DNA from: an uncultured Eubacteriales bacterium
GTDB lineage: Bacteria; Bacillota; Clostridia; Christensenellales; Aristaeellaceae
Direction: 5' to 3'
Assembly: GCA_900318145.1 (NCBI GenBank)
Contig: ONJM01000003.1
Span: 62,001-126,000 of the forward strand
DNA length: 64,000 nucleotides
How positions within the stretch are numbered: the stretch's first letter is position 1; every line of letters begins with the position of its first letter. Below, in pieces: positions 45,950-58,240 of this stretch. The position numbers and the translations under genes are program-made. The notes beneath the pieces are model-generated. The model was not told the origin of the DNA. It made no database searches and was given only the letters and a program-made list of their open reading frames with translations.

Positions 45950-46024
45950 AAAAGTATACCTCCTCAAATAGTCCTGAATACGCCGTTTCACCGGGATAAC
46001 GCTGCGCGGCGTTTTTCTTCATAC

Positions 46025-46076
46025 ATATAACGTTATATAACGGAAAAAAAATCCTGTCAACAAATTGTAACAATTT
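46025..46076 (-). promoter_or_regulatory. Promoter flanked by two palindromes
   Basis: On the reverse strand TTGACA (46060-46055) and TATAAC (46037-46032) are 17 bases apart. A perfect palindrome ATATAACGTTATAT (46025-46038) covers the -10 and start region, and an interrupted palindrome AAATTGT-A-ACAATTT (46062-46076) lies directly upstream of the -35. It serves the duplicated secreted-protein gene. Confidence 0.7.
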
Positions 46077-46106
46077 TGAGCAGGGAATGTCACAAAACGG
46101 GGAACC

Positions 46107-46135
46107 TTGACGGCCAGTCTCCCCCACGATAGAAT
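46107..46135 (+). promoter_or_regulatory. SigA-type promoter for larC
   Basis: TTGACG (46107-46112) and TAGAAT (46130-46135) lie 17 bases apart, 83 bases before the larC start. Confidence 0.7.
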
Positions 46136-46218
46136 AAGCTATAATTTCAGCAAAAAAGAACTGTAGCGAAACCTGAACCGGAGAAACCGGGAAATAAGAT
46201 TTCAGGAGGAACACAGAG

Positions 46219-47469
46219 ATGAAAACACTTTATATCGAATGCGGCATGGGCGCGGCGGGGGACATGCTGACGGCGGCGCTGCTGGAACTGATTCCGGACC
46301 GTCAGGCATTTATCGGACGGATGAACAGCCTTGGACTGCCGGGGGTCCGGGTGGAAGCGGAACCTTCCGTGAAATGCGGGATTACCGGAACGCATATGAA
46401 GGTTACGGTAAACGGGGAGGAAGAGGAATCGCATGACGATCACGGGCATGACCATGAACACGATCACGAACACGAACATGATCATGAACATGGGCATGCG
46501 CACGGCCATGATCATCCGCACCATCACGCTTCCGCGGCAGACATCAGTGCGGTGATTGACGGGCTGGAGATTCCGGACAAGGTAAAGGAGGACGCGAAAG
46601 CGGTATACAGGATCATCGCCGGCGCGGAAAGCAAGGTACACGGGCGGCCGGTGGAGGAGATCCACTTTCACGAGGTGGGGACGATGGACGCGGTGGCGGA
46701 TGTGGTCGGCGTTTGCCTGCTGATGCATGAAATCGCCCCGGAACAGGTTGTCGTCTCGCCGGTGCACGTGGGATCCGGGCGTGTGCGCTGCGCCCACGGC
46801 ATTCTGCCGGTGCCGGCGCCGGCGACCGCGCTGATTCTTACCGGGATTCCCACTTACGGCGGGCAGGTGCGGGGAGAACTGTGCACGCTCACAGGCGCCG
46901 CGCTGCTGAAATACTTCGCCGACCGCTTCGGCGACCGCCCGGTGATGGCGGTAAATCTGATCGGCTACGGCATGGGGAAAAAGGATTTTGAGCAGGCCAA
47001 CTGTGTGCGGGTTTTCCTGGGGGAAAGCGAAGGAGAACGGGAAATCGCCGTAAAGCTGGAATGCAATTTGGACGACATGACAGCGGAGGATATCGGTTAC
47101 GCCATGGAGCAGCTGTTTGCGGCCGGAGCGCGGGATGTCTATACGCAGCCCGCGGGCATGAAAAAAAGCAGGCCGGGAATCCTGCTGAGCGTGGTATGCG
47201 CACGGGAAGACGCGGACCGGCTGGCTGAAGAGATCATGCGGCATACGACGACCCTTGGAATCCGCCGGATGGAGATCAGCCGGTATGTGCTGAGGAGGGA
47301 AATCAGGCCTGTAGCCACCGAATTCGGAGAAGTGCGGGTGAAATACGCCTCCGGCATGGGGACGGAAAAAGCGAAACCGGAGTATGAGGACATTGCTGCC
47401 ATCGCACGCAAAAACGGCATTCCGGTCAGAACTGTCCGGGAAGCGGTGCAAAAAGCAATAAGGAAATAG
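46219..47469 (+). CDS. larC: Nickel insertion protein LarC
   Basis: LarC uses CTP to insert nickel into the pincer cofactor of lactate racemase and related enzymes. The 416-residue protein starts LYIECGMGAAGDMLTAALLEL, has a His/Asp/Glu-rich stretch (about residues 72-110) with many HDH/HEH units for metal binding, and the conserved EIHFHEVGTMDAVADVVG. The C-terminal half has ECNLDDMTAEDIGYAMEQL. In Lactobacillus larC is read through a programmed frameshift; here one frame spans both parts. No larA, larB or larE is present in the window. Confidence 0.92.
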   Translation: MKTLYIECGMGAAGDMLTAALLELIPDRQAFIGRMNSLGLPGVRVEAEPSVKCGITGTHMKVTVNGEEEESHDDHGHDHEHDHEHEHDHEHGHAHGHDHPHHHASAADISAVIDGLEIPDKVKEDAKAVYRIIAGAESKVHGRPVEEIHFHEVGTMDAVADVVGVCLLMHEIAPEQVVVSPVHVGSGRVRCAHGILPVPAPATALILTGIPTYGGQVRGELCTLTGAALLKYFADRFGDRPVMAVNLIGYGMGKKDFEQANCVRVFLGESEGEREIAVKLECNLDDMTAEDIGYAMEQLFAAGARDVYTQPAGMKKSRPGILLSVVCAREDADRLAEEIMRHTTTLGIRRMEISRYVLRREIRPVATEFGEVRVKYASGMGTEKAKPEYEDIAAIARKNGIPVRTVREAVQKAIRK

Positions 47470-53308: not shown

Positions 53309-53337
53309 TTGACAGGGGATATGCCGCATGTTAGAAT
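53309..53337 (+). promoter_or_regulatory. SigA-type promoter for the DUF3842-ECF-kinase operon
   Basis: TTGACA (53309-53314) and TAGAAT (53332-53337) are separated by 17 bases. Transcription would begin near 53344, giving a leader of about 170 nucleotides before DUF3842. Confidence 0.8.
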
Positions 53338-53343
53338 AATCGC

Positions 53344-53465
53344 CGTCAGCACAAGCTGGCGAAGGCACGCACAAGCGGGTTGTCCTTTGTTTATTCCAGG
53401 CTGAAGATTCCGGTGTCATGAAGGTGCCGATGATCCTCCGAAGAGGATTGTCGGTTTATATTTTT
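53344..53465 (+). ncRNA. Attenuator-type structured leader, riboswitch candidate of unknown ligand
   Basis: Downstream of the promoter lie two hairpins with ACAA loops (CAGC-ACAA-GCTG at 53347-53358 and CGC-ACAA-GCG at 53368-53377). A 12-bp terminator stem with a CGAA loop follows (53427-53438 with 53443-53454, two G-U pairs), then TTTATATTTTT. GGCAC at 53364-53368 is complementary to GTGCC at 53424-53428, which overlaps the 5' arm of the terminator, so the two folds exclude each other. I could not match it to a known riboswitch class. No gene lies in 53205-53512. Confidence 0.6.
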
Positions 53466-53512
53466 CCGGAGCCAGAAGGCGCGAAACGAAACAGGAATCA
53501 GGGAGGGCCTTG

Positions 53513-53935
53513 ATGAAAATTCTGGTAATCGACGGGCAGGGAGGCCGGCTTGGCCGCAGACTGCTGGAGAATATACGGAAAACATGTCCGGAAGCGGAGA
53601 TTTCCGCTGTCGGCACGAACAGCATCGCGACACAGAACATGATGAACAGCAGCTGCGCCGATCATCTCGCGACCGGCGAAAACGCCGTAATCGTTGCATG
53701 CCGTACGGCGCAGATCATCGTCGGCCCCTTCGGCATCGCCACGGCCGACGCCATGATGGGTGAGATTTCTCCCGCCATGGCCAACGCGGTGGCTTCGAGT
53801 CCGGCCTACCGTGTACTGATTCCCATGAATCTGTGCAACACATATATCGCCGGAGTGGCATCGGGCTCCGCCGCGATTCTGGAGGACGCGATGCGGCAGA
53901 TTCAGAAATTCATGAGCGGAGAAAAGGAAAAATGA
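53513..53935 (+). CDS. DUF3842 family protein
   Basis: The 140-residue protein starts MKILVIDGQGGRLGRRLLEN, a Rossmann-like phosphate-binding loop. It has VGTNSIATQNMMNSS, VACRTAQIIVGPFG and MNLCNTYIAGVASGS, the features of the uncharacterised DUF3842 family. Function unknown. It begins after GGGAGGGCCTTG and overlaps the ECF gene by 4 bases (ATGA), so it is co-translated with a transporter subunit; a role in handling the imported molecule is inferred. Confidence 0.85.
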   Translation: MKILVIDGQGGRLGRRLLENIRKTCPEAEISAVGTNSIATQNMMNSSCADHLATGENAVIVACRTAQIIVGPFGIATADAMMGEISPAMANAVASSPAYRVLIPMNLCNTYIAGVASGSAAILEDAMRQIQKFMSGEKEK

Positions 53936-54474
53936 GTTCACTTCAGGTGCGCAAGCTGACTTACGCGGCGCTTTTTCTGGCGCTTGCCATGGTACTTCCT
54001 TTTGTCACCGGCCAGATTCCCGAGATCGGTTCCATGCTGTGCCCCATGCATATTCCCGCGCTGCTGTGCGGTTTCATGTGCGGCTGGCCCTGGGGGCTTG
54101 CGGTCGGGTTCATCGCGCCGCTGCTGCGCTCTGTGATTTTCGGTATGCCCGCGATGTTTCCCGGCGCGGTTGCCATGGCGTTTGAACTGGCTGTTTACGG
54201 AGCAACGGCCGGATTGCTGTACCGTATGCTGCCAAGGAAGAAATGGATCATTTATATCGTGCTGATCGTATCCATGATTGCCGGACGCGTGGTATGGGGA
54301 ATTGTCCGAATGATTCTGGCAGGCCTGTCCGGCGGTGGCTTTACCTGGGCGCTGTTTATCGCCGGCGCGGTGACCAACGCGATTCCCGGGATCATTATGC
54401 ATCTCGTACTGATTCCCTTGCTGGTGATTGTAATGGACCGGGCCGGACTGACGCTCAACAAACAACAGGACTGA
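53932..54474 (+). CDS. ECF transporter substrate-binding (S) component
   Basis: The 180-residue protein has about five or six membrane helices and the N-terminal motif VRKLTYAALFLALAMVLPF with the conserved Ala-x3-Ala contact surface of ECF S components (pfam12822-like), then GSMLCPMHIPALLCGFMCG. S components bind a vitamin or precursor and work with a shared EcfA/EcfA'/EcfT module, which is not in the window. The substrate cannot be told from sequence. It lies between DUF3842 and a kinase, so the import of a molecule that is then phosphorylated is plausible. Confidence 0.88.
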   Translation: MSSLQVRKLTYAALFLALAMVLPFVTGQIPEIGSMLCPMHIPALLCGFMCGWPWGLAVGFIAPLLRSVIFGMPAMFPGAVAMAFELAVYGATAGLLYRMLPRKKWIIYIVLIVSMIAGRVVWGIVRMILAGLSGGGFTWALFIAGAVTNAIPGIIMHLVLIPLLVIVMDRAGLTLNKQQD

Positions 54475-54487
54475 TAGGGACTGAAAA

Positions 54488-55147
54488 ATGGCCGGGAAAG
54501 ATTTTGACCGGGAGAGTATGCTCCATCGCGAAGCGCAGGAATCCGGAAAGCGGCAGGAGACTGTCAGATCCGTTTTTCAGGCGGTGGAAATCATCGGCAG
54601 GACAGCCGGCCGGCAGCCGGGACGGATTCTCGTTACGATTGACGGGCCGTGCGCGTCCGGGAAAACGACGCTGGCGGAAAAGCTGGCGGCGATCCTTGAC
54701 GCCGCTGTGGTGCATACGGACGATTTCGTGATCCCGCACGCGCAGAAAACCCCGGAGCGGCTGGCGGTTCCGGGCGGCAACTGTGACGCGGACCGGCTGG
54801 TCCGGGAGGTTGCCGCTCCGTGGAAACAGGGCGATCCGGTGATATACAGGAAGTATGACTTCAGAAAGGACCGGCTGCTTCCGGCGGAGAAGCTGCCGGA
54901 CTGCCGTATCCTGATTCTGGAAGGAAGCTACTGCAGTCTCCCGGCGATCCGGATATACGCCGATGTTCCGATGTTCGTGAAAACACCGTGGAAAACCCGG
55001 CTGGAACGGCTGGAACGGCGGGAATCCGCGCAGTCGCTGCAGATGTTCCATGACCGGTGGATTCCCCTGGAAGACCGGTATTTCGAAGCATTCGGACTTC
55101 CTGACGGGGAGTGTATTCTTTACGAACAGGGCGGGGAAGCAGACTGA
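54488..55147 (+). CDS. Uridine kinase/phosphoribulokinase-family kinase
   Basis: The 219-residue protein has a Walker A motif VTIDGPCASGKTTLAEKL and the following substrate segment VVHTDDFVIPHAQ, the signature of the PRK/uridine-kinase/pantothenate-kinase superfamily. ILILEGSYCSLP (Walker B) and a lid arginine region RLERLERRES also fit. About 50 N-terminal residues precede the P-loop. It is 13 bases after the ECF S gene, and may phosphorylate the imported compound to trap it. Confidence 0.83.
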   Translation: MAGKDFDRESMLHREAQESGKRQETVRSVFQAVEIIGRTAGRQPGRILVTIDGPCASGKTTLAEKLAAILDAAVVHTDDFVIPHAQKTPERLAVPGGNCDADRLVREVAAPWKQGDPVIYRKYDFRKDRLLPAEKLPDCRILILEGSYCSLPAIRIYADVPMFVKTPWKTRLERLERRESAQSLQMFHDRWIPLEDRYFEAFGLPDGECILYEQGGEAD

Positions 55148-57179: not shown

Positions 57180-58061
57180 TCAGGACTGCGGTTCGTCCTT
57201 CGGGTTGACATGGATCATCACGTGCTTTACGTTGGGGAATTCCCGTTCGACGGCGCTGTGTACGCGTTCCGCGATCCGGTGGGCGTCGATCAGCGAAATA
57301 TCCGTTTTCACCGCAATCTCAAGATCCACATAAATCCTGTTGCCGAACTGCCGTGTGCGCAGGAGATCAATCCGCTCGACACCGTCCTGCTTTCCGATGA
57401 AATCGCGCAGTCTCTGCTCAAACGCGTTTCCGCAGGAAGTGTCGAGCATTCTGTTCATCGCGTCGCGGGAAATATCGAAAGCGACCTTGAGAATCAGGGC
57501 ACAGATGACCAGGCTGGCGATGGGATCCATTACCGGAAATCCCAGCTTTGCCATGCCGATGCCGATAAAAGAACCGACGGAAGAGATCGCGTCTGAGCGG
57601 TGATGCCACGCGTCCGCCCGGAACGCCGCGGAATCGAGTATCCTGGCATAATGCATTGTATACCGGTACATGCCTTCCTTGACGGCGATGGACACAACCG
57701 CCGCAATCAGAGGAAGCATTGTGGGGATCTCAATGCTCCCGTGTTCTCCGAAGAGCTTGCGGATTCCGCTCCAGCCGATTCCGGCTCCGGTACCGGCAAG
57801 GATCAGCCCGAGAAGCAGTGACGCGACGCATTCCAGCCGTTCGTGCCCGTAAGGATGTTCCGCGTCTTCCGCCTGCTTTGAAAGGCGTACGCCGATCCAG
57901 GCGATGAAGGTTGCAAAAACGTCGGAGAGTGAATGCACGGCGTCGGAAACCATCGCGCCGGACCGGCCGAGGATTCCGGCAATCAGCTTAAACGCCGCGA
58001 GCAGGATGTTCCCGAAAATTCCGACACGGGACAGGCGGCTGAAGATCCTTTTTTCATCCAT
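57180..58061 (-). CDS. Cation diffusion facilitator (CDF) family exporter
   Basis: CDF proteins export zinc, cobalt, nickel, iron or manganese by metal/proton exchange. The 293-residue protein has six membrane helices with the metal-site motifs in helix II (SDAVHSLSDVFATFIAW) and helix V (HHRSDAISSVGSFIGIGMA), and a C-terminal cytosolic domain (about residues 210-290). A NiCo riboswitch lies in its leader, which points to cobalt and nickel as the inducing metals. It faces the rubrerythrin operon. Confidence 0.92.
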   Translation of the reverse strand: MDEKRIFSRLSRVGIFGNILLAAFKLIAGILGRSGAMVSDAVHSLSDVFATFIAWIGVRLSKQAEDAEHPYGHERLECVASLLLGLILAGTGAGIGWSGIRKLFGEHGSIEIPTMLPLIAAVVSIAVKEGMYRYTMHYARILDSAAFRADAWHHRSDAISSVGSFIGIGMAKLGFPVMDPIASLVICALILKVAFDISRDAMNRMLDTSCGNAFEQRLRDFIGKQDGVERIDLLRTRQFGNRIYVDLEIAVKTDISLIDAHRIAERVHSAVEREFPNVKHVMIHVNPKDEPQS

Positions 58062-58108: not shown

Positions 58109-58240
58109 AAAAAGAGCGCACCCGGGGACATGCTCCTGTCCCGCAGATGCGCTTCGCGCTTTTTCTGCTGCTGTTTTCACAGCCCAGCCACGTAGATCTC
58201 CGTGACGGAGAAATACTGCCTGTTCAGTCTGCCCTGCGGA
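58109..58240 (-). promoter_or_regulatory. NiCo (czcD) riboswitch with terminator
   Basis: On the reverse strand the leader contains the NiCo core in order: ACTGAACAGGCAG (near 58229-58217), a variable hairpin, GGCTGGGCTGTGAAAACAGC, GCAGA, a hairpin and TCTGCGGGACAG (58147-58136). This agrees with the four-way-junction consensus of nickel/cobalt riboswitches. The 3' part is also the 5' arm of a terminator (GGGACA with TGTCCC and GCGCA with TGCGC) ending in TCTTTTT (58115-58109). Metal binding would keep the terminator from forming and turn the exporter on. Confidence 0.85.

Follow-up and report, generated by a model that had tools for sequence, protein, structure and literature searches.

The guanidine-II (mini-ykkC) riboswitch is built from tandem small hairpins that carry identical short ACGR loops and are joined by a flexible linker. 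ANTAR target RNAs, among them those of EutV, NasR and AmiR, are described in excerpts of PMC3369931 as dual hairpins with repeated hexaloops (A1, G4), the second overlapping a terminator. Among lar genes, LarA encodes the known NPN enzyme, and the nickel-pincer (NPN) cofactor is made from nicotinic acid adenine dinucleotide by LarB, LarE and LarC, in that order (excerpt of PMC11770544). A literature search, mostly without subscription papers, returned no paper joining the nickel pincer with a riboswitch, none joining LarA, LarB, LarE or lactate racemase with salvage, none joining ECF transporter, S component, riboswitch and uridine kinase, and none on DUF3842; for the lar system, the papers and excerpts that it covered held no RNA control or salvage route.

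Here, we describe a leader (53309-53512) in a 64,000 nt stretch, hereafter the window, of contig ONJM01000003.1 from an uncultured Eubacteriales bacterium of the family Aristaeellaceae. Like the ANTAR targets, it has tandem small same-loop hairpins, one of which overlaps an intrinsic terminator, and default termination is proposed for both. However, its loops are 4-5 nt (NNAA or ANGAA), many related leaders have more than two hairpins, and the genes are different. Although the mode of working is alike, the leader therefore falls outside the ANTAR target definition as excerpted, which calls for the A1/G4 hexaloop. It shares with guanidine-II the tandem small hairpins, identical short loops and flexible linker, but differs in loop, regulon, an extra antiterminator hairpin and the lack of an Rfam match. 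The nickel theme is common to the leader and a NiCo riboswitch (RF02683, 51.4 bits) 5 kb away, at 58134-58237 (-), though cmscan gives no RF02683 match on the leader. The ORF behind that riboswitch, 57180-58061 (-), resembles, by eye, a gene for a cation efflux protein. The lar genes are the other point of contact: larB, larC and larE are found behind such leaders in other Clostridia, and larC in the window's family.

Structure and conservation of the leader

Comparison of the window with the original prediction confirmed a near-consensus promoter, two ACAA-loop hairpins (here named P1 and P2) and a 12 bp terminator with a U-run (Table 1). The terminator stem is 12-13 bp, and the window copy of P2 has a single A-G mismatch. 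The conserved antiterminator, P3, was absent from that description; its 3' strand is overlapped by the 5' strand of the terminator. The pairing put forward as the switch, GGCAC (53364-53368) with GTGCC (53424-53428), had to be abandoned, with GGCAC found between P1 and P3 in just 3 of 32 family leaders. The folding z-score of the window leader RNA is -2.4, with 4 of 200 shuffles equally stable and 196 less so.

Table 1. Features of the leader, its operon and larC in the window
Feature	Position	Strand	Basis
Promoter, -35 TTGACA / -10 TAGAAT, spacer 17	53309..53337	+	11/12 consensus matches
Hairpin P1, GUCAGC-ACAA-GCUGGC	53345..53360	+	fold, covariation
Hairpin P2, ACAA loop, C-G closing	53365..53380	+	covariation
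Hairpin P3, antiterminator, CGGUGUC-AUGAA-GGUGCCG	53411..53429	+	conservation, covariation
Intrinsic terminator, stem 53426-53455, T-rich tail to 53465	53426..53465	+	fold, -19.7 kcal/mol
Likely ribosome-binding site, GGGAGG	53501..53506	+	read from sequence
DUF3842 protein, predicted Rossmann-like, candidate trans-acting factor	53513..53935	+	PF12953, E 2e-43
ECF transporter substrate-binding (S) component	53932..54474	+	PF12822, E 2e-17
P-loop kinase, uridine kinase/PRK06547-like	54488..55147	+	
larC, enzyme that inserts nickel in nickel-pincer nucleotide (NPN) synthesis	46219..47469	+	over NCBIfam cut-off

DUF3842 is present in 49 of 100 relatives, with the window's genome counted in. Upstream stretches of these 49 loci were inspected, and ten leaders picked by eye had P1, P2 and P3 in common, with P3 reading CGGUAUC-A(N)GAA-GGUGCCG, its 3' strand forming the terminator 5' strand, and -35 TTGACA (eight) or TTGACG (two) plus a TATAAT-like box directly 5' of P1. 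The covariance model built from them, R1, found 33 sites at E <1e-4 in 32 of the 100 relatives. The resulting 32-leader alignment (A5; 3 of 35 rows, one partial and two weak, were left out beforehand), which leans towards the model because it was fitted to it, has 94.4% paired cells, two-sided changes in 9 of 19 pairs and a covariation score of 0.284 (0.177 shuffled; 0/500 shuffles as high), while slid controls pair 19-47%. A ten-row MAFFT alignment gave 91.6% paired cells and two-sided change in 7/19 pairs. Conservation in relatives, set as a check in the original prediction, is thus strong and accompanied by covariation in these 32 leaders. They average 2.47 same-loop hairpins each, compared with 0.056 in shuffles; the P1 and P2 loops are mostly NNAA with C-G closing, and the P3 loop is ANGAA-like.

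When a second covariance model, R2, was used, 96 of 308 family genomes gave a match with E no higher than 0.01, and in 88 of these E was under 1e-4. No strong match was returned from 290 other class genomes; ten weak ones among 291 class genomes scored 20-24 bits. The view that the leader belongs to no known class agrees with Rfam (4227 families), none of which reached its gathering threshold over the window leader. The sole Rfam match around it at E up to 10 was a 12-bit snoRNA on the other strand, and there was no match on 15 further loci, nor at the leaders of 20 more.

A terminator that overlaps P3 and has a calculated stability above that of P3 was found in 30 of the 32 family leaders, the other two having no such terminator by the rule used. 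In the window, the values are -3.9 kcal/mol for P3 and -19.7 kcal/mol for the terminator. CNNAAG is also the sequence of the apical loop in 23 of these 30 terminators. From these energies, termination is likely the default, and P3 would need to be held for read-through. The window leader is almost certainly a structured attenuator, and it combines a conserved structure with an expression platform, the combination looked for in a riboswitch.

Genes behind the leader

At 32 of the 33 strong R1 loci, the leader lies ahead of at least one of the genes for NucC (5'-nucleotidase C-terminal domain, PF02872), MoxR, DUF58, a Peripla_BP_2-like lipoprotein (a weak match, E 0.004), DUF3842, ECF S and the kinase, and the remaining one (L102) is at a contig end. 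These families were checked on L093 and L090, and the other loci were searched by tblastn. None of the genes is downstream of the weak R1 matches L114 and L115. The same genes follow 56 of 60 further R2 loci; of the other four, L175 is at a contig end, L195 has part of larC, and L192 and L194 have none of the queries. In L087, L088, L098 and L103, the leader stands ahead of ECF S without DUF3842. The 5'-nucleotidase C-terminal domain protein, MoxR ATPase, DUF58 protein and Peripla_BP_2-like lipoprotein form a further module of the family operons, as at L093:2000-6512 (-). The kinase often has an N-terminal domain of approximately 175 residues with no Pfam match (L093:1-1030 (-), L318:1991-3058 (+)).

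In the window, larC lies approximately 6 kb upstream of the leader and apart from it, and no such leader was seen by eye 5' of it (45950-46240). In relatives it is within the leader's operon, directly 3' of ECF S at 13 loci in 12 genomes (L090, L099, L101, L103, L136, L138, L154, L157-L160, L179 and L182), a count made on stretches many of which stop short of the operon end. Neither larB nor larE is in any of the family loci's sequence stretches. In G050, larC is followed by a LarA homologue that is closest to LarAH10 (418 bits, below the cut-off of 540).

The same design, with C-ANGAA-G and C-NGAA-G loops, lies in the stretch that separates DUF3842 from the following gene in many of the best 80 of 523 DUF3842 loci from a scan of named genomes. 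By a strict count (stem of at least 5, loop ending in AA, C-G closing, two hairpins within 170 nt; 1 of 60 loci left out for its short flank), two or more hairpins lie beside DUF3842 in 23/59 loci, compared with 0/59 when the downstream stretch was read on its other strand, 0/59 in distant stretches, and 2/1180 downstream and 5/1180 upstream shuffles. Twelve leaders from other Clostridia, which remained for alignment once those with a 4-nt P1 loop or a long linker (11 of the 23 located) had been set aside, have 92.5% paired cells, two-sided change in 12 of 17 pairs and a covariation score of 0.715 (0.256 shuffled). Hairpin number ranges from P1 and P3 alone by eye (e.g. L322, L328 and L330) to three plus P3 (L273), and the P2-P3 linker from approximately 20 to more than 90 nt.

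A third covariance model, R3, had matches with E no higher than 0.01 in 25 of the 391 class genomes, with 1.9 same-loop hairpins per leader (0.038 in shuffles); as R3 was built from leaders beside DUF3842 with these loops, this loop count and the linked cases are biased, and at least one match (L312) is a training sequence (L253). R3 fails to recover the window's own leader, and what links the two leader groups is therefore a common design and common genes rather than a single model. L217, L219 and L220, in which DUF3842 follows ACAA or AUAA loops, appear intermediate. A cobalamin riboswitch, L328:2172-2368 (-), is less than 3 kb from an R3 leader.

Twenty R3 matches were inspected with long flanks and five with 1.5 kb flanks. 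ECF S genes follow 17 of the 25, with a kinase domain in view in 12 of those, and lar genes (larE/larB/larC) follow four (L312, L314, L321 and L331). The leader of L316 precedes the same type of small membrane protein as L314 and L331, and no recognisable gene is behind those of L317, L326 and L310. LarB, LarC and LarE of L321 are over the NCBIfam cut-offs, as is LarB of L240, where another DUF3842-linked leader precedes LarB and a CbiM-type gene. Further DUF3842-linked leaders are found before SBP_bac_5 genes (L235, L263) and before CbiM-type genes alone (L250, L272 by eye). A small membrane protein starting with MACF stands ahead of lar genes at L314:4113-4535 (-), where it has no Pfam match, and recurs in L258, L265, L316 and L331. 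With larB, larC or larE behind 4/25 class-wide matches and larC in 13 family loci, the leader is very probably part of an NPN/nickel regulon.

Distribution of lar genes and DUF3842

Eighty genomes were profiled: 25 R3-positive, 30 DUF3842-negative and 25 DUF3842-positive without R3, the last two sets being the first by handle. LarC was over the cut-off in 7, 12 and 16 of these, respectively, and LarA in 18, 11 and 14. Among LarC-less genomes, LarA was present in 14/18 R3-positive versus 6/18 DUF3842-negative (p 0.018; this and all p-values below are optimistic because the genomes are related) and in 6/9 DUF3842-positive without R3. As the last figure compares with 12/16 for ECF-type genomes (p 0.67), DUF3842-positive genomes without R3 do not differ noticeably from the R3-positive group. 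LarC was found in 1 of 17 ECF-type genomes versus 12 of 30 DUF3842-negative (p 0.017). LarA in 12/16 LarC-less ECF-type genomes is what salvage of the cofactor would lead one to expect.

For the window's family, the count covers 60 of the 100 relatives (32 leader-positive, 28 leader-negative). LarC was present in 27/32 leader-positive and 15/28 leader-negative genomes (p 0.012), and LarA was not enriched (9/32 vs 7/28); it was not found in the window's genome, which is 88% complete. As ECF-type genomes elsewhere are mostly without LarC and the family's leader-positive genomes mostly have it, the two cannot share one salvage route. Genomes of the window's family may take up a nickel-free precursor for LarC, and those of the other group a finished riboside. 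Many genomes have weak partial PF09861 matches (approximately 20 bits). A divergent LarA was considered for these, but the one case tested, in L334, proved to be a DUF362/ferredoxin protein (DUF362 E 9e-55; Lar_N 19 bits, below cut-off), and such matches were therefore not counted as LarA.

DUF3842 is present in 24/25 R3-positive and 111/366 other class genomes (Fisher p 3e-11). The sole R3-positive genome without it, G591, has no recognisable target either. In the 24, DUF3842 is never inside the leader-controlled unit: eight genomes have it upstream in the same orientation, one upstream and divergent, and six downstream and convergent, and in nine it lies on a different contig. In the window's family, and likewise in L217, L219, L220 and L223, it follows the leader and belongs to the unit. 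Within the family, 27/32 leader-positive and 9/28 leader-negative genomes have DUF3842, and the five leader-positive genomes without it are 78-88% complete. The AlphaFold model of DUF3842 is confident (pLDDT 87.7, pTM 0.80) and Rossmann-like. A fold search returned generic Rossmann-like matches only (TM about 0.5), and a sequence search of the PDB nothing significant. The placement of DUF3842 resembles, and could be, that of a regulator gene, but co-occurrence would look alike for a pathway protein in synthesis and salvage.

Control of the operon and its meaning

The reading we tentatively prefer is that of an antitermination leader of an NPN-cofactor regulon, in which same-loop hairpins bind a protein, possibly DUF3842, and the operon imports and phosphorylates an NPN precursor. 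Support is good for the structure and the regulon; the factor, signal and substrate placed on them are putative. By default, the strong terminator would form and transcription would stop. A factor on the conserved loops of P1, P2 and P3 would hold the weak P3, so that the terminator would lose its 5' strand and the operon would be read; the structures, their overlap, computed relative stability and conservation are the established part of this mechanism. This factor would probably be a protein, one able to recognise the C-NNAA-G or C-ANGAA-G loops that recur in the leader. Protein-mediated control is somewhat favoured overall. DUF3842, predicted to be Rossmann-like, nearly always shares a genome with the leader; it is the leading candidate for this protein and a plausible one. 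Import and phosphorylation, proposed originally, remains the best reading of the operon, with NPN precursors now the candidate substrate class: ECF S would import a pyridinium-type NPN precursor or riboside, the kinase would phosphorylate it, and LarC would complete the cofactor.

The strongest alternative, unlikely but not far behind, is a true riboswitch resembling guanidine-II, in which loop-loop pairing joins the small hairpins and NPN, one of its precursors or nickel is bound directly, the ligand deciding between P3 and the terminator. Targets that are one cofactor's synthesis and uptake genes are typical of riboswitches, and the short conserved loops and strongly conserved P3 sequence would suit one, but hairpin number and the P2-P3 linker vary, there is no conserved junction or core beyond the hairpins, and DUF3842 co-occurs. 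The variable hairpin number, single loop type and co-occurring protein family point to protein-mediated antitermination instead. What stands of the predicted new riboswitch or attenuator is thus a conserved leader-type regulatory element over DUF3842, ECF S and kinase genes, without an Rfam match; its ligand-binding form is disfavoured on these same grounds.

It is rather improbable that another protein, such as an ANTAR-type antiterminator, binds the hairpins and that DUF3842 is a pathway protein. The dual repeated-loop hairpins overlapping a terminator in excerpts of PMC3369931 would fit, and one ANTAR gene was found in the window's genome, but it adjoins glutamine synthetase on another contig and the loops lack the hexaloop. 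Least probable is a response to nickel in general, with ECF S importing an unrelated nucleoside-like vitamin: some leaders do precede CbiM-type transporters or SBP_bac_5 systems and LarA is not enriched in the window's family, but lar genes are recurrent targets and larC shares an operon with ECF S.

The preferred reading, protein-mediated antitermination of an NPN regulon, can be extended. DUF3842 might found a new class of cofactor-sensing RNA-binding antiterminators that sense NPN via the Rossmann-like fold and bind arrays of C-(A)NNAA-G hairpins, thereby turning on the genes for making NPN (larBCE, nickel uptake) or for salvaging it (ECF S, kinase, LarC) in Clostridia, and the window operon would then be the first described NPN salvage route. 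As LarC without LarA is common (18/35 LarC-positive among the 80 genomes; 33/42 in the family), the regulon may also lead to unknown NPN enzymes. If the preferred reading is true, the nickel-pincer cofactor would gain a control element at the level of RNA as well as a candidate route of uptake, DUF3842 and an orphan ECF S/kinase pair would each gain a function, and a second family of hairpin-array antitermination would stand beside ANTAR.
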